DNA of 21,555 nucleotides from a virus. Both the position numbers and the translations under genes were made by a program. Positions 3,225 to 9,049 of this stretch are shown in pieces. The stretch lies in IMG/VR virus record IMGVR_UViG_3300005581_000164, positions 1 to 21,555 of that record; one strand, 5' to 3'. Within the stretch, counting starts at the first letter, position 1; each line of letters opens with the position of its first letter. Below the pieces are notes generated by a model. The model saw only the letters and a list, made by a program, of their open reading frames with translations, did not search any database and was not told the DNA's origin.

Positions 3225-5335
3225 AAGACGACAAGCTTCTTGAGGAAATCCGGGCCAACTTCAAGGCCTGCGAAGATTGGGAAGCCACGGCCCGGCAGAA
3301 CTACATCGATGACCTGAAATTTGGCAACGGCGACGCGCGCAATCTGTGGCAGTGGCCCGATGACGTGCAGAAGTCCCGCACGCTGCCGGGATCGCAAAAG
3401 CCTATGCTGACCGTCAACAAGACGCGCCAGCATTGCCTCCAAATTATCAACGACGCGCGCCAGAACAAGGTGGGCATCCAAATCCGCCCGGTTGGCGGCG
3501 AGGCGACGGAGAAGGCGGCGGAGCTGTATGAAGCCCTTGTGCGGGGCATCGAATACCGATCCAACGCTACGCTGGCCTATGAAGCCGCCATGTATACGGC
3601 GGTTTTCGGCGGCATCGGTTACACGCGGGTGCATGTCGATTACGCCGATGAAGACAGCTTCGACCAAGAGATTTTCATCAAGCGCGTAGCCGACCCGCAG
3701 ACGATCTACCTTGACCCCGACATTCAGGAATACGACGGGTCTGACGCGCGCTTTGGGTTCGTGTTTGAAGATCTGCCGCGCAAGGAAGCTGAAGCCAAAT
3801 ACCGGCGATACAAGGAAGCGTTTGCCGAGGAATCGCTAGGCGGGTCGGATGCGTGGTGCGGCGACGAAAAGGTTCGCATCTGCGAGTATTTCTATCGTTC
3901 TGAGACGGCAGACACGCTGATTGCGCTGCCAGACGGCAACACGCTGCGCAAGTCGGAATTGCCGCCGGGTGCCTATAATGCGTTGAAAACTGAGGCCGAA
4001 GCCGCCGGCATCGAGTTGCGCGAGCGCCCCATCGTCAACCAAGCGGTGGAGTGGTGTAAAGTCATCGGCAACACGATTGTTGACCGGCGGCCGTGGCTGG
4101 GCAAATACATCCCGATCGCCCGGCTCGTTGGCGAAGAGACGGTCATCCAAGGCCAGATGGACCGCAAGGGCCATGTGCGCGCGCTTCTCGATCCGCAGAA
4201 GATGTATAATTACAACTCCTCCGGGTCGGTTGAGTTTGTGGCGCTTCAGACCAAAAGCCCGTGGCTGGCATCGGCGCGCGCTGTGGAAGGCAACCTGGAA
4301 CAGTGGACAGAGGCGAACGTTAAGAACGCCAGCGTCCTGATTTGGCAGGACGTTGACGAGGCAGGCAACCCCATTGCGCCGCCGCAGCGGATTGCGCCGC
4401 CCCCCGCCGCGTCTGGCCACATCGAGGGCATGCAGGTAGCGCAGCAAGAGATGATGCTGGTGTCTGGCCAGTATCAGGCGATCATGGGCGCGCCGAGCAA
4501 TGAAACTAGCGGCCGGGCCATCAACGCGCGCCAGCGGCAGGGCGACAACGCGACGTATCACTTTATCGACCATCAGGCCGTGATGATTCGGTTCTTGGGT
4601 CGGATCGTGCTTGACCTGGTGCCAAAGGTTTACGACACGCCCCGCGTGTTGCAGGCAATGGGCCGCGATGACAAGCGGTTTAAGGTGCAAGTTGACCCGA
4701 ACGCGCCGCAGCCGGCGGTTATGCACGCGGATCCGGCGGAACAGGATTTTGACGCCGAGACGGTGGCGGCGGTTCTAAATCCGTCTGTCGGCAAATATGA
4801 CGTCATCAGCGACGTTGGCCCGTCCTACGCCACGCAACGGCAGGAATCGTTCAACGCCTTCAGTGAGATTCTCCGCCAGCAGCAAGGCGCATGGCAGGTG
4901 GTTGGCGACCTTTGGGCGGAAAGCGCGGACTTCCCCGGCAGCGAGAAACTTGCCGAGCGGTTGCGCAAAATGCTGCCGCCTGCGGTCAAGGGCGGCCCGT
5001 CTCCGGCGGAACAGCAGATGCAGCAGCAGCTTCAGGCCATCTCGCAGACGGCCAACCAAGCCGTTGAGCAGTTGCAAGCGCAGAACGCGGAACTTGAAGC
5101 GAAGCTGGCCGATCAGGCGGCGGATATCCAGCGCAAGGACTACGAAGCGGAGACGAACCGGCTTCGCGCCATCGGCGGAATTGATCCTGACGCGATGAAG
5201 CCGGTTATTCGTGAAATGGTGTCGCAGATGCTCGGCGAGGCGATTATGCCGCTCATGGCGCAGCACGCAGCAGCGGACCGGGCGATGTTGCCGCAGCCTG
5301 CGCCGATGATGCCCGAGGGGATGCCGAATGGCTAG
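3212..5335 (+). CDS. Portal protein, P22 gp1-type
   Basis: This 707-aa product is close to the length of P22 gp1 (about 725 aa). It begins MAGLKDDKLLEEIRANF, has the family-like N-terminal region RQNYIDDLKFGNGDARNLW and LTVNKTRQHCLQIINDARQN, and the DPQTIYLDPD segment. Near the C-terminus (about residues 595-652) is a Gln-rich amphipathic stretch (EQQMQQQLQ, then QNAELEAKLADQ) that should form a helical coiled coil, the position of the C-terminal barrel in P22. Twelve copies would form the DNA channel at one capsid vertex. They bind the terminase during packaging and the gp4-like protein afterwards. GGGGA (3200-3204) precedes the ATG by 7 bases. The gene overlaps TerL upstream and the glycine-rich gene downstream. 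Confidence 0.93.
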   Translation: MAGLKDDKLLEEIRANFKACEDWEATARQNYIDDLKFGNGDARNLWQWPDDVQKSRTLPGSQKPMLTVNKTRQHCLQIINDARQNKVGIQIRPVGGEATEKAAELYEALVRGIEYRSNATLAYEAAMYTAVFGGIGYTRVHVDYADEDSFDQEIFIKRVADPQTIYLDPDIQEYDGSDARFGFVFEDLPRKEAEAKYRRYKEAFAEESLGGSDAWCGDEKVRICEYFYRSETADTLIALPDGNTLRKSELPPGAYNALKTEAEAAGIELRERPIVNQAVEWCKVIGNTIVDRRPWLGKYIPIARLVGEETVIQGQMDRKGHVRALLDPQKMYNYNSSGSVEFVALQTKSPWLASARAVEGNLEQWTEANVKNASVLIWQDVDEAGNPIAPPQRIAPPPAASGHIEGMQVAQQEMMLVSGQYQAIMGAPSNETSGRAINARQRQGDNATYHFIDHQAVMIRFLGRIVLDLVPKVYDTPRVLQAMGRDDKRFKVQVDPNAPQPAVMHADPAEQDFDAETVAAVLNPSVGKYDVISDVGPSYATQRQESFNAFSEILRQQQGAWQVVGDLWAESADFPGSEKLAERLRKMLPPAVKGGPSPAEQQMQQQLQAISQTANQAVEQLQAQNAELEAKLADQAADIQRKDYEAETNRLRAIGGIDPDAMKPVIREMVSQMLGEAIMPLMAQHAAADRAMLPQPAPMMPEGMPNG

Positions 5336-6023
5336 CGCACCAACCGGCTTCTACGACTACCGGACCCGTGCCGGCCGCCAATACCCGGTATGGATGAACA
5401 GCGGCACCGCGCCAACGCGGGCGCCTCGCACTCAGGCCGCGCCGGAATACGAGAACTTGCCGGCGGTTGTTACGCCGCAGCCTGCCACGCCAAACGTGTT
5501 GGCGCCGCAACCTATGGGTATGGCGCAGGGCTTTGCGCAGCCCGAGGGCGGCGGCGGTGGGTATGGGGCGCCCGCGCAGGGAAACACGACGTTTGGCGAC
5601 TTCATGAACGCGCTGGGCTTTAGCGGGTTTGGCGGGCCGCAGAACGGAACCGCCCCGCTTGGCGCTGTGGACACCGCGACTATGGAGAACCCCGGCGACC
5701 TCTCCGGCGCGGGCGGCCAAGGGGCTGGCGCGCAGGATGGCGGTATGGGCGGCGGCATGGGCGACATGGGCGCCGGGATGGGGGGTGACGCAGGCGGCGG
5801 CGTTGGCGGCATGGATGGCGCAGGCGGCGGCATGTATCGCGGCGGCATCGTCACGGCCAACCGGCTGCAAGGGCCAGACCCACATGGGCCAGATGACGGC
5901 TACGTGGCGATGGACAAGGGCGAGGGCGTCCTGACCGCCAAGGCCATTAAGCATTACGGGCCGGGGATTGTGGACCGGCTCAACAAGTTGGCGGTGCCGA
6001 AGGGGGCATTCCGTAAATCATGA
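5328..6023 (+). CDS. Glycine-rich phage protein with an LTPGEfV-like C-terminal motif
   Basis: This is a 231-aa product with GAGGGG (5315-5320) placed 7 bases before the ATG, overlapping the portal by 8 bases. The N-terminal half is Pro/Ala-rich. Residues about 125-170 are very Gly/Met-rich and low-complexity (for example GGMGGGMGDMGAGMGG). The last 63 residues hold a motif, DDGYVAMDKGEGVLTAKAI followed by YGPGIVDRLN. It matches the recurring phage pattern in which a Gly-rich linker leads to VpaxLtpGEfVlxxxAvxxyG...lxxLN. That motif is found in many tailed-phage structural proteins, often near tape-measure or ejection proteins, and its biochemical role is not known to me. Placement between portal and scaffold suggests a prohead component. 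No function can be assigned. Confidence 0.85.
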   Translation: MASAPTGFYDYRTRAGRQYPVWMNSGTAPTRAPRTQAAPEYENLPAVVTPQPATPNVLAPQPMGMAQGFAQPEGGGGGYGAPAQGNTTFGDFMNALGFSGFGGPQNGTAPLGAVDTATMENPGDLSGAGGQGAGAQDGGMGGGMGDMGAGMGGDAGGGVGGMDGAGGGMYRGGIVTANRLQGPDPHGPDDGYVAMDKGEGVLTAKAIKHYGPGIVDRLNKLAVPKGAFRKS

Positions 6024-6211
6024 CAGACGAAATTCTTGGATGGAAGCCGCCTGTCATTTATGACATGGGCGCCGATCAAACCCGAATTGCAACACAAGAA
6101 GACATTGATCGTCTTGTTAAGCAAGTTGCAGTGCTGGGCCAGTTTTTCCGCGATATGCAGACGCAATCGCGGCTTGTCCGCACAAGCTTAGGTGTGCCGG
6201 ACAACGCCTGA
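6020..6211 (+). CDS. Hypothetical 63-aa protein between portal block and scaffold
   Basis: The start overlaps the preceding stop as ATGA (6020-6023). The product begins MTDEILGWKPPVIYDMG and has one likely amphipathic helix (DIDRLVKQVAVLGQFFRDM). No known family is recognised. Codon use is somewhat richer in A/T than its neighbours. Small proteins of this kind between portal and scaffold are common in P22-like phages, but their role is not established. Coupled translation and the lack of a gap support it as a real gene. Confidence 0.65.
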   Translation: MTDEILGWKPPVIYDMGADQTRIATQEDIDRLVKQVAVLGQFFRDMQTQSRLVRTSLGVPDNA

Positions 6212-6225
6212 CGTGCCTAACCCCA

Positions 6226-6264
6226 CCGGAGGGTATCCGGGCGACTAGCCGCGCTGTGAAGCGC
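6226..6264 (+). promoter_or_regulatory. Two tandem perfect hairpins in the leader of the scaffold gene
   Basis: In the 63-base gap before the scaffold gene, CCGGA (6226-6230) pairs with TCCGG (6236-6240), and part of the stem and loop contains an SD-like GGAGGG. GCGCT (6251-6255) pairs with AGCGC (6260-6264) around a GTGA loop, which is a GNRA-type tetraloop. The second hairpin ends 10 bases before the ATG at 6275. No T-run follows, so these are not terminators. A role in translation or mRNA processing is inferred. Confidence 0.45.
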
Positions 6265-6274
6265 CGCAACCATC

Positions 6275-7042
6275 ATGGACCCCATGAGCGAAACACTGGA
6301 AAGCGCCACGCAGGGCGCGCCGGATACCGGCGAATCTGTGCCTCAGCCCGCCAACGATACGGCTCCAGACACCGGGCAGGAGCAACAGGCAGACACCGCA
6401 GAACAGGCCGAGACGCCAGAGGAACCGAAGCGCAAGCCGTGGTTTCAGCAGCGCATCGACGAACTGACGCGGGAGAAGCATGAAGCACGGCGACAAGCGG
6501 AACAGCTTGCCAGCTACCTGCGCACCATTCAGCAGGGCCAGCAGTATCCGCAGCAGCAGGACGCACCGCAGGTTCCGGCCGGCTACGTGCCAGCGTCGGA
6601 AGTGCAGCGCATCGCGGCGCAGCAAGTAGAGGCAGACCGCTTTAACGCGGCTTGCAATGAGATCGCGGACCACGGCGAAAGCCGGTTCTCCGATTTTCAA
6701 GAGGCTGTGTCTAACTTCCAGATGTTGGGCGGCCCTTCGCCCGCGCTTCTGGAAGCCGTGACTGCGCTAGGCAAAGAGGACGGCGCCCGAGTTTATTACG
6801 AACTTGGGAAGAACCCGGACGAAGCCTCGCGCCTTGCTCGTTTGTCGCCTGCCCGGATGGCCGTGGAAGTCGCGCGGATGGCTGCAAAGCCTGCGACGGC
6901 TCTCAAGGCAATTAGCCGTGTCGCCCCGCCGATCAGCCCCATCAGCGCCGCGCGCGCCGAAGTGGGGGGCGAACCTGACGCCAGCAAGAACCCCGAAGCC
7001 TGGACGAAATGGTTCAACGATCAGCGGCGAACCCGGCGCTGA
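6275..7042 (+). CDS. Scaffolding protein (P22 gp8-like position and form)
   Basis: This is a 255-aa acidic, Gln-rich protein between portal and coat, the standard scaffold slot (P22 gp8 is 303 aa). Residues 1-50 are Thr/Glu/Gln-rich and disordered. A charged helical segment follows (QQRIDELTREKHEARRQAEQL) with a Gln-rich linker (QQGQQYPQQQ). Then comes a helical middle, and the C-terminus is short and basic (WTKWFNDQRRTRR), like the basic coat-binding helices at scaffold C-termini. Internal scaffold would direct coat assembly into a prohead and then exit. The start is ambiguous between ATG 6275 and ATG 6284 (MSETLES), and neither has a clear Shine-Dalgarno. The leader contains two hairpins (6226-6264). 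The family is inferred from context and composition rather than a catalytic signature. Confidence 0.8.
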   Translation: MDPMSETLESATQGAPDTGESVPQPANDTAPDTGQEQQADTAEQAETPEEPKRKPWFQQRIDELTREKHEARRQAEQLASYLRTIQQGQQYPQQQDAPQVPAGYVPASEVQRIAAQQVEADRFNAACNEIADHGESRFSDFQEAVSNFQMLGGPSPALLEAVTALGKEDGARVYYELGKNPDEASRLARLSPARMAVEVARMAAKPATALKAISRVAPPISPISAARAEVGGEPDASKNPEAWTKWFNDQRRTRR

Positions 7043-7141
7043 GGCGCGCGCCCGCGTAGCCGTATCCCCTTCAAAGGCGGCCCTAGGCAAGCCGCCCCCG
7101 CCCCGTCGTGACGACGGCGCATTCACGAAAGTGAGCCTCCT
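7043..7141 (+). promoter_or_regulatory. Structured leader of the coat gene
   Basis: The 99-base gap holds a perfect 10-base palindrome GGCGCGCGCC (7043-7052), a stem-loop GGCGGC/GCCGCC (7076-7081 with 7091-7096) and a stem-loop CCGTCG-TGA-CGACGG (7103-7117). None is followed by a T-run. AAAGTGAG (7128-7135) is a plausible Shine-Dalgarno 6 bases before the coat ATG and is left unpaired by these stems. I see no promoter boxes. A role in mRNA stability, processing or differential coat translation is inferred. Confidence 0.45.
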
Positions 7142-8326
7142 ATGGCCAATACTTTGCTTAACGTCGACAAGATCACCAACGCGGCGTTGGCGATCCTGCA
7201 CCAGAAGTTGAACTTCGTCGGTTCGATCAATCGCACCTATGACAGTTCTTTCGCTGTCGAGGGCGCCAAGATCGGTAGCACCCTGCGGATCCGGTTGCCC
7301 AACAAGTTCACCACCACGACCGGCCAGGCGCTCAACCTTCAGGACGTGCAGGAAACGAACACGACCCTGACCGTTGCCACCCAGCGCGGCGTGCATACCG
7401 TGTTCAACTCGCAGCAGCTGGCGCTGAACATCTTCGACTTCTCGCAGCAGGTGCTTGAACCCGCGATGGCGCAGCTTGCGGCGTCCATCGAAGCGGATTC
7501 GCTGTCGATGCTCACCAGCGTGTACAACACCGTCAACGGCTCCGGCAGCGCGCAGACGCTGCGCAACGTGCTGGGTGGCCGCAAGATTCTGCGTGACAAC
7601 CTGGCGCCGGCTGCCGAAACCTACATGGCCCGCATCGACACTCAGTCGAACGTGGACCTAGTGGACTCGCTCAAGGGGCTGTTCCAGTCCTCGCAGCAGA
7701 TCAAGCGCCAGTATGAGGAGGGCGTGATGGGGATGACCGGCGGCTTTGAGTTCGCCGAGAATACCCTGTTGCCGTCCTTCACCTTCGGCGCGCGCAATGC
7801 CGCGTACCTGACGAACGCGGCTGTGGCGCAGACTGGTTCTAGCCTGATTGTGGATACTGGCGCGAACGCAGCGGCGGCGGGTGATGTGTTCACCATCGGC
7901 GGCGTGTTCCGCGTGCATCCGGAAACGAAGGTGTCCACCGGCATCCTTCAGCAGTTCGTCGTGACTGCGGCGTATGCGGGCGGCGCCGGCACTATCTCGA
8001 TTGCGCCGGCGATCACGGCCACTGGCCCCTACCAGAACGTGAGCAACGGCGCTGCGGACAATCAGGCGATTACGTTCGTCGGCACTGCGTCTGCCACCAC
8101 GCAGCAGAGCGTGGTCTACCACAAGGACGCCTTCGCCTTCGCGACTGCCGACCTGCCGCTTCCCGATGGCGTTCACTTCGCTGGCCGGAAGGTGCAGGAG
8201 GGTATCTCGATGCGTGTCGTCCGCGCCTACGACATCAACAACGATCAGTTCCCGTGTCGTATCGAGGTGCTTTACGGCTATCGGGCCATCCGGCCTGAGA
8301 TCGCCTGCCGCATCCTGTCGAACTGA
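7142..8326 (+). CDS. Major capsid (coat) protein, P22 coat family
   Basis: This 394-aa product (P22 gp5 is 430 aa) follows the scaffold directly. It begins MANTLLNVDKITNAALAIL, has an N-arm and a segment IGSTLRIRLPNKFTTTTGQ typical of P22-type coat proteins. A variable middle domain (about 230-320, Gly/Ala/Thr-rich beta) follows, and a conserved C-terminal region contains VYHKDAFAFATADLPLPDG, SMRVVRAYDINNDQFPCR and VLYGYRAIRPE. The YHKDAFAFA...DLP and LYG...RPE patterns are hallmarks of this HK97-fold coat family. Several hundred copies would form the icosahedral shell. The gene has its own leader with hairpins (7043-7141), consistent with it being the most abundantly made protein of the cluster. 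Confidence 0.94.
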   Translation: MANTLLNVDKITNAALAILHQKLNFVGSINRTYDSSFAVEGAKIGSTLRIRLPNKFTTTTGQALNLQDVQETNTTLTVATQRGVHTVFNSQQLALNIFDFSQQVLEPAMAQLAASIEADSLSMLTSVYNTVNGSGSAQTLRNVLGGRKILRDNLAPAAETYMARIDTQSNVDLVDSLKGLFQSSQQIKRQYEEGVMGMTGGFEFAENTLLPSFTFGARNAAYLTNAAVAQTGSSLIVDTGANAAAAGDVFTIGGVFRVHPETKVSTGILQQFVVTAAYAGGAGTISIAPAITATGPYQNVSNGAADNQAITFVGTASATTQQSVVYHKDAFAFATADLPLPDGVHFAGRKVQEGISMRVVRAYDINNDQFPCRIEVLYGYRAIRPEIACRILSN

Positions 8327-8335
8327 CCCGACGCC

Positions 8336-9049
8336 ATGACCCCGGTTCGCCTTATCACGCTGATTCTGCGCGATGCCGGGGTTAACGGCGTTGGCCAGAC
8401 ACCGCGCGCCGAAGACCTGAACGACGTTCTCGACACGTTGAACATGATGCTGGACGAATGGGCCACAAAGCGGTGGCTTGTCTATCATCTCGTTGACGTG
8501 TCGGTTCCGGTCACAGGCGCGCAATTCTACACTGTCGGGCCGGGTGGAGATATCGACACCACGCGGCCCGATCAGGTGCAAGCCGCGTTCTTCCGTTCGA
8601 CCATTTCGACGCCCAACGTTGACTATGTGTTGGGCGATATCGGATCGCGCGAGGACTACAACCGTATTGCCCTGAAGTCTCAGGGCGCTTGGCCGTCGTG
8701 GTATTGGTATGATGCCGCGTATCCGCTGGGCAATTTCTACCCGTGGCCGTTGCCGCAGTCGGGTATTGGCGAACTGCATCTGACCCTCAAGCAGCCTTTC
8801 GCACACTTCCCCGACCTCACGACCGACATTGCCTTTCCGCCTGCCTACATCAACGCCATGCGCTGGAACGGCGCGGTGCGGGTGCGGCCGATGTATGGCC
8901 TAGGCGAAAGCGCCGCCATCGCCCGGCTTGCTGCGGCGTCGCTGGGCGCGGTGCGAGGGCCGAACATTCAGGTTCCCATGGCGCGGATGCCGATGGGCAT
9001 CCCGACGCCGGGGCGTAGATACAATGTGTATAGCGACAATTTTCGTTGA
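8336..9049 (+). CDS. Head-completion / tail accessory factor, P22 gp4-like
   Basis: This is a 237-aa product starting 9 bases after the coat stop. It has no Shine-Dalgarno, so reinitiation is likely. The N-terminus PVRLITLILRDAGVNGVGQ and LNDVLDTLNMMLDEWATKR matches the helical start of gp4-type connectors. The middle has VSVPVTGAQFYTVGPGGDI, and the later part has YPLGNFYPWPLP followed by FPPAYINAMRWN. In P22, gp4 binds the portal after packaging and forms the first ring of the tail. At 237 aa this one is longer than P22 gp4 (166 aa). The position between coat and gp10 agrees, apart from the endonuclease gene inserted after it. Confidence 0.88.
   Translation: MTPVRLITLILRDAGVNGVGQTPRAEDLNDVLDTLNMMLDEWATKRWLVYHLVDVSVPVTGAQFYTVGPGGDIDTTRPDQVQAAFFRSTISTPNVDYVLGDIGSREDYNRIALKSQGAWPSWYWYDAAYPLGNFYPWPLPQSGIGELHLTLKQPFAHFPDLTTDIAFPPAYINAMRWNGAVRVRPMYGLGESAAIARLAAASLGAVRGPNIQVPMARMPMGIPTPGRRYNVYSDNFR

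Follow-up and report, generated by a model that had tools for sequence, protein, structure and literature searches.

A covarying leader pseudoknot upstream of scaffold genes in P22-like phages, a putative element of translational control

The scaffold protein of phage P22, the product of gene 8, controls its own synthesis post-transcriptionally. To our knowledge, autoregulation of P22-type scaffolds has been recognized for decades without a defined RNA site. Leader pseudoknots act in other systems: in E. coli rpsO, S15 binds one that overlaps the ribosome-binding site. A 2010 review presents the rpsO structure as a pseudoknot within a translational operator (PMC3014915). In phages T4, T2 and RB69, the leader pseudoknot of gene 32 is described as the autogenous operator of gp32, a DNA-binding protein (PMC535899, PMC3014915). 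The pseudoknot region lies 67 nt upstream, with an unstructured stretch containing UUAAA repeats after it (PMC3014915, PMC535899). The same review considered gene 32 to be possibly the only viral leader pseudoknot in translational autocontrol (PMC3014915). Here we compare with these systems the scaffold leader of a virus record of 21,555 bases, the whole of which is referred to as the window.

The scaffold leader and its predicted pseudoknot

The head gene cluster of the window is of the P22 type and comprises terminase, portal (P22_portal), orf231, orf63, scaffold (phrog_8865) and coat (P22_CoatProtein) genes. The scaffold gene matched the phrog_8865 head scaffolding protein with an E value of 5.6e-26. 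The TGA stop codon of orf63 occupies 6209-6211; with the scaffold ORF beginning at ATG 6275, a gap of 63 nt (6212-6274) is left. Relatives share a start at ATG 6284 (MSE), which is unchanged in all 10 aligned scaffolds; relatives L012 and L030 have no counterpart to the MDP start at 6275. The two start codons at 6275-6286 lie 9 nt apart (ATGGACCCCATGAGC), and relatives keep the second invariant but not the first. An upstream ATG in L012 begins a frame of three codons, and the stop of this frame overlaps the conserved start. Among 249 sequences searched, orf63 (6020-6211) was matched only in the window's own record and one contig (L001, L021, L200). Given these few matches, and since the orf231 homologue of near relatives ends directly before the gap, orf63 looks like a recent insertion beside the element. 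The features of the leader are as follows.

6220..6223, + strand: pseudoknot stem 1, 5' strand (ACCC), pairing with 6231-6234; owing to a CCCC run, the register can shift by one base
6224..6225, + strand: pseudoknot loop 1 (CA); counts of these flanking bases in relatives are given below
6226..6230, + strand: pseudoknot stem 2, 5' strand (CCGGA), the first arm of hairpin 1
6231..6234, + strand: pseudoknot stem 1, 3' strand (GGGT), inside the hairpin-1 loop; its pairing was tested without selecting for it
6235..6235, + strand: pseudoknot loop 3 (A); 1-4 nt were allowed in scans
6236..6240, + strand: pseudoknot stem 2, 3' strand (TCCGG), with GC immediately 3' of it
6248..6267, + strand: hairpin 2, GC-C-GCGCT-GTGA-AGCGC-C-GC, with a GNRA tetraloop and 5 bp, a mismatch and 2 bp; clade-specific
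6284..7042, + strand: scaffold gene, counted from the conserved MSE start, with the ORF beginning at 6275; M4-S5-E6 is invariant in 10/10

A preliminary description of the gap had reported two perfect hairpins, one with a GNRA loop, reaching to 10 nt before ATG 6275, and all of this was confirmed. Hairpin 1 comprises CCGGA (6226-6230), the loop GGGTA and TCCGG (6236-6240); hairpin 2 comprises GCGCT (6251-6255), GTGA and AGCGC (6260-6264). Both stems are perfect over 5 bp. In a single sequence such a pair is weak evidence, the chance being about 1%: two non-overlapping 5-bp hairpins occurred in 46 of 5000 sequences obtained by dinucleotide shuffling of the gap, and 61 of 6142 windows of 63 nt from the same phage also contained them. 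A 111-nt segment folded with a z of -1.40, and 19 of 200 shuffles folded as well; its minimum free energy (MFE) structure retained hairpin 2 and not hairpin 1. ViennaRNA does not score pseudoknots, so the folding energies concern nested structures only. The nested MFE of the gap alone was -21.2 kcal/mol. Evaluated on 6212-6300, hairpins 1 and 2 as drawn gave -16.8 versus an MFE of -29.2 kcal/mol. According to these models, hairpin 1 is not thermodynamically favoured and nested folding in the window is predicted to prefer other pairings.

The bases around hairpin 1 can be read differently. ACCC (6220-6223), CA, CCGGA, GGGT (6231-6234), A and TCCGG describe a compact H-type pseudoknot, of which hairpin 1 forms the second stem. 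In its general architecture, a stem 1 of 3-6 bp, a loop 1 of 1-3 nt and a stem 2 of 5-7 bp are combined such that the 3' strand of stem 1 directly follows the 5' strand of stem 2, with a loop 3 of 1-4 nt.

Occurrence and covariation of the pseudoknot

IMG/VR scans with scaffold, coat and portal queries yielded at least 242 loci, often several on one contig. At least 577 coat relatives were confirmed in IMG/VR, the best 80 of which were taken into the sample. The leader set was reduced from 211 loci to 169 distinct and then 151 non-redundant leaders. Scaffold starts in these sets were mechanical ORF starts, some of which were wrong (e.g. L087, L204, L075, L077 and L088), and the pseudoknot counts are thereby lowered. 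A blastn search of 5900-7500 against annotated phages gave no match, and a 101-nt query matched 13 records, all at E 0.9 or worse. A scan of genome contigs found two distant loci.

The pseudoknot topology was present in 65 of the 151 non-redundant leaders, as compared to 9.2 ± 2.3 in dinucleotide shuffles (20 rounds, highest 14), such that about nine of the 65 matches are expected by chance. The remaining 86 of 151 leaders lacked this loose pattern. Most matches (47/65) end 15-29 nt 5' of the mechanical scaffold start. Outside leaders, the pattern occurred in 378 of 4528 plus-strand windows (8.3%) and in 9.4% of 4528 minus-strand windows. A strict form, in which A precedes stem 2, stem 2 begins with C and G follows it, was found in 39 of 151 leaders (3.04 per kb). 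In the other 1.31 Mb there were 50 plus-strand sites (0.038 per kb) and 21 minus-strand sites (0.016 per kb); the density in leaders was thus ∼80-fold greater than elsewhere on the same strand. One of the 50, in L087, is a true leader with a miscalled start.

Stem 1 was also evaluated in hairpins chosen on stem 2 and its flanks only. Its pairing was present in 34 of 51 cases, versus 10.2 ± 2.5 with the loops permuted among leaders, the highest of 2000 permutations being 21. Next to any hairpin, the corresponding figures were 45 of 118 versus 12.5 ± 3.0 (highest 24). Hairpin 1 of the preliminary description exists and is conserved; its loop can pair upstream, and the second stem of a pseudoknot is a better reading of it than an independent hairpin.

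The sequence of both stems varies. Compensatory types of stem 1 in relatives include CCC/GGG, CCG/CGG, GCC/GGC, ACCT/AGGT, CGC/GCG and AATC/GATT. Complete examples are CCG-ta-CCCGTC-CGG-ctc-GACGGG, CGC-ta-CCGATG-GCG-act-CATCGG, AATC-ta-CCGCTG-GATT-t-CAGCGG, ACCT-ta-CCAGTT-AGGT-a-AACTGG and CGC-tc-GCACTG-GCG-tt-CAGTGC. Little sequence is fixed beyond a tendency to YACC...GGGC. In 74 matches among the 169 leaders, the two bases 5' of stem 2 were TA (28), AA (12), CA (11), GA (7) or other (16), and the two bases 3' of it were GC in 36 and GT in 10.

For pair counts, ungapped classes of equal length were aligned, namely A5 (9 sequences) and A4 (11 sequences). A MAFFT alignment of near-clade leaders misaligned several of its 18 rows at the pseudoknot and was kept out of the counts. 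In A5, all 81 of 81 cells were paired and the covariation score was 0.722 versus 0.208 when shuffled; the percentage paired in A4 and A5 is circular since the sequences were chosen by pairing. The score of A4 was 0.589 versus 0.152, and its number of pairs changed on both sides was reached in 33 of 500 shuffles.

When a covariance model built on stem 2 alone was applied to 83 of the 249 sequences (714 kb), 22 matches up to E 5 were obtained, of which 20 lay on the plus strand and two on the minus strand. All 20 plus-strand matches lay 13-45 nt 5' of an ORF of at least 130 aa, and 17 of them within 13-28 nt; among the 20, L123 is a seed and L087, L090 and L093 resemble seeds. Model R2 found no match at E ≤ 0.001 in two bacterial genomes, an uninformative result given how little information the model contains. 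Rfam release 15 gave no match at gathering score in the window or in six relatives; at E up to 10, 6150-6350 had two matches only, both far below gathering score. No description of a scaffold-leader pseudoknot was found in the literature searched; a 2017 catalogue of 224 RNA motifs, outside that search, may hold one.

We also inspected the 90 nt before the scaffold start in 20 named phage records; in this test, three start positions were off by one or two bases. A tight pattern was present in 14 of 20, versus 1.5 ± 1.2 when shuffled (highest 5, 30 rounds), and the strict form in 12 of 20 versus 0.0. The 14 are Pseudomonas phage PAE2, Vibrio phages FGH, VvAW1, 41E34.2, 1.211.A, 1.184.A and 1.183.O, Shewanella phage X14, Thalassomonas phage BA3 and five Manatee Spring genomes. 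FGH, 41E34.2, 1.211.A, 1.184.A, 1.183.O and X14 are nearly identical there and so are not independent. The pseudoknot was absent from the other six of the 20 (P22, DSL-LC05, PBR31, EBPR podovirus 1, phiAX1 and P26218), and a further record without an annotated scaffold start (L265) had no match in its first 1500 bases. In Vibrio phages 41E34.2 (L260), 1.211.A (L262) and 1.184.A (L263), the ATG of the annotated scaffold CDS overlaps the pseudoknot, 5' of a likely ATGAGT start. The motif can help to place scaffold starts, three of five records being annotated from an ATG that overlaps it.

Overall, these comparisons indicate that many P22-like phages have a predicted leader pseudoknot before the scaffold gene, in which structure is conserved to a greater degree than sequence.

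Hairpin 2, spacing and the coat leader

The near-clade comparison covered 24 leaders including that of the window, corresponding to 17 distinct sequences; L001 (identical to the window across its 8,765 bases) and L011 (without leader) were excluded. The stem of hairpin 1, i.e., stem 2, occurs as CCGGA/TCCGG, CCGGC/GCCGG, CCCGG/CCGGG, CTAGG/CCTAG, CCGTG/CACGG and CTCGG/CCGAG. It is a perfect 5 bp in 14 of the 17, contains a C.A mismatch within 6 bp in L012 and L014, and has 4 bp in L069. Stem 2 of L012 and L017 was read from the sequence, the script having returned the stem-1 hairpin; L017 was also found by the pseudoknot scan, where it is listed as L019. Stem 1 has at least 3 bp in 15 of 17 leaders and is lost in L020 and L036. 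In several near relatives (L002:120-205; also L004-L009), the pseudoknot is preceded by an additional stretch in which CGCGTT...AACGCG forms a further inverted repeat around GTGAGAGAC.

Of the 17 distinct leaders, 15 have hairpin 2, the exceptions being L014 and L017. Its loop is GNRA in 14 (GTGA, GCGA or GAGA) and UUCG in one (L030). In eight distinct sequences, 98.2% of cells were paired, four of seven pairs showed two-sided change, and the covariation score was 0.597 versus 0.252 shuffled; the number of further pair types was not raised, being reached by 458 of 500 shuffles. To judge from these alignments, the window's clade has in hairpin 2 a GNRA hairpin that covaries and is located between the pseudoknot and the start. 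The structured scaffold leader of the preliminary description was thus borne out, and the covariation analysis proposed there found both hairpin pairings to covary in related phages.

In 30 strict leaders without an intervening hairpin, the distance from the pseudoknot end to the start had a median of 22 nt (quartiles 17.75-24.25). In the window, this distance to ATG 6275 is 34 nt raw and 20 nt with the 14 nt of hairpin 2 folded away; to ATG 6284, it is 43 nt raw and 29 effective. Measured from the MSE start, near-clade leaders with hairpin 2 span 30-44 nt raw and 18-30 effective, including L012 (39 raw, 25 effective), and those without it span 21 (L014) and 26 nt (L017); L012 and L017 were read from the sequence. 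Thirteen strict leaders have some intervening hairpin. The five near-clade ones correct to 14-25 nt. The other eight, whose hairpins are mostly non-GNRA, come to 5-39 nt after correction, although several of them had a normal raw spacing to begin with, so that correction by a hairpin is not a general rule; these eight hairpins may be chance occurrences. The spacing evidence is drawn from few lineages. Within the window's clade, it suggests that hairpin 2 would fold the extra bases away and keep the pseudoknot at a working distance from the start, near 20-30 nt.

A role of the pseudoknot as a substitute for translational coupling to the upstream gene was rejected: the length of the gap is unrelated to its presence (median 62 nt with it, n = 41, versus 58 nt without, n = 102). 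This comparison used open frames of at least 90 aa, so that genes the size of orf63 were overlooked.

Two further hairpins precede the coat gene.

7076..7096, + strand: coat-leader hairpin GGCGGC-CCTAGGCAA-GCCGCC, with a 9-nt loop (CTTAGGCAA type) near-invariant in the clade; ∼45 nt before the coat ATG
7103..7117, + strand: coat-leader hairpin CCGTC-GTGAC-GACGG, from the sequence, with variants in relatives by eye

The consensus of the 9-nt loop is (C/A)(C/T)T(A/G)GGCAA, and the stems around it are very different and covary. With a stem of at least 4 bp, the hairpin was found in 15 of 172 distinct coat-upstream regions, all from the near clade. A scan of both strands of the whole sequence collection for perfect 5-bp stems found 11 distinct sequences, all before near-clade coat genes. 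Since the loop was part of the search pattern, its constancy is to be read only as that seen in 16 near-clade leaders; in L016 the loop is present and the stem mismatched. The hairpin at 7076-7096 is a candidate protein-binding site. The segment 7103-7134 also contains a small hairpin, TCAC-GAAA-GTGA, 5' of the coat gene. By eye, CGTC/GACG-like hairpins with GTGA or GCGA loops recur 5' of the coat or scaffold genes of relatives.

Possible function and comparison with known systems

Because many distantly related phages keep the knotted shape while its letters change, the pseudoknot is a probable control element for the amount of scaffold protein. We consider it fairly probable that it acts in cis on the mRNA to control translation of the scaffold gene. 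Its predicted place is the upstream border of the 30S footprint, from which it would influence initiation at the scaffold start. In view of the spacing pattern, the weak Shine-Dalgarno (SD) sequence of the window, described below, and the lack of relation to the upstream gap, we propose that translation is controlled at the scaffold start; the likeliest means would be a protein that docks on the pseudoknot. With less confidence, this protein may be a repressor, the best candidate being the scaffold (or coat) protein, in which case free scaffold would lower its own synthesis. In its fullest form, the proposal is that the pseudoknots are a new, widespread phage family of autogenous translational operators of P22-like scaffold genes and that, in the window's clade, together with the spacer GNRA hairpin and the coat-leader hairpin, they let the assembly proteins set the scaffold:coat ratio via RNA. 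We advance this version tentatively, as a possibility that may well prove wrong.

A constitutive element without ligand, which would insulate the ribosome-binding site, serve as a 30S standby or entrapment structure or protect a processed 5' end, with the scaffold level fixed, seems somewhat unlikely. A structural role predicts what is observed, in that the structure is kept with little fixed sequence across very divergent scaffolds and several host genera, close to the edge of the 30S footprint. However, the preference for certain flanking letters, together with the fixed spacing, suggests that some factor recognizes the element, and a simple stabilizer would presumably need no pseudoknot.

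The preliminary description had instead envisaged two independent hairpins that hide the SD sequence and repress translation until melted, which we regard as improbable. Both hairpins exist and are conserved, and in the window GGAGGG is indeed buried in hairpin 1. However, this SD-like sequence ends 41 nt before ATG 6275 and is not kept in relatives, which have GGCGGG, GGCAGG, AGGCGG or GTGACG. Moreover, the hairpin-1 loop is complementary to upstream bases far more often than are permuted loops. The absence of a free SD holds for the window, whose starts have little or none (-0.2 kcal/mol at 6275, -3.0 at 6284), but several pseudoknot-bearing relatives have, by eye, an SD-like sequence between the pseudoknot and the ATG. 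Nor is the weak SD unique to the scaffold start, as ORF 8336 also lacks one.

An element acting in DNA or transcription, such as a palindromic protein site, terminator or pause, is very improbable. Stem 2 does form an inverted repeat, a pseudoknot of this kind can also pair in its reverse complement, and 27 of 151 leaders match on the minus strand, but a palindrome leaves the match of the loop to the upstream triplet unexplained. A scan of 4500-9000 for terminators gave one site, at 8606, and none at the gap, where a GC-rich hairpin followed by a T-run was not found. Least probable of all is a programmed frameshift stimulator for the upstream gene: the pseudoknot starts inside the upstream frame (open frames of at least 90 aa) at nine of 41 loci, but at or after the upstream stop at 32 of 41 and 8 nt past the orf63 stop in the window, where slippery sequences were sought by eye.

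With respect to P22 gene 8, the preliminary description's link to scaffold autoregulation stands as an analogy only. Gene position and capsid family are alike. However, the portal-scaffold gap of P22 is 13 nt and neither leader element is present: the P22 scaffold leader has no such pseudoknot, and no hairpin of at least 5 bp with a loop of 3-8 nt in its last 90 nt. The rpsO operator differs in that the scaffold-leader pseudoknot lies upstream of the ribosome-binding site.

T4-type phages offer the nearest known system, the leader pseudoknot of gene 32. That element is likewise a compact pseudoknot in a phage mRNA leader, 5' of the ribosome-binding site and common to sequence-diverged phages (PMC535899, PMC3014915). 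The scaffold leaders share with it a predicted H-type pseudoknot with both stems covarying and a position upstream of the initiation region. They differ in that the downstream gene encodes a capsid scaffold and lies mostly 15-30 nt away. In the window, moreover, UUAAA repeats are lacking; by reading, 6241-6283 contains no UUAAA/UAAA-rich spreading region. Because this zone is absent from the window and self-binding is only putative here, we liken the scaffold pseudoknot to the gene 32 element rather than calling it a member. The element is small enough to be readily testable as RNA, and phages of Vibrio, Shewanella, Thalassomonas and Pseudomonas carry it. Should it prove to be an operator, translational autocontrol by a phage leader pseudoknot would have a second case beside that of gene 32.
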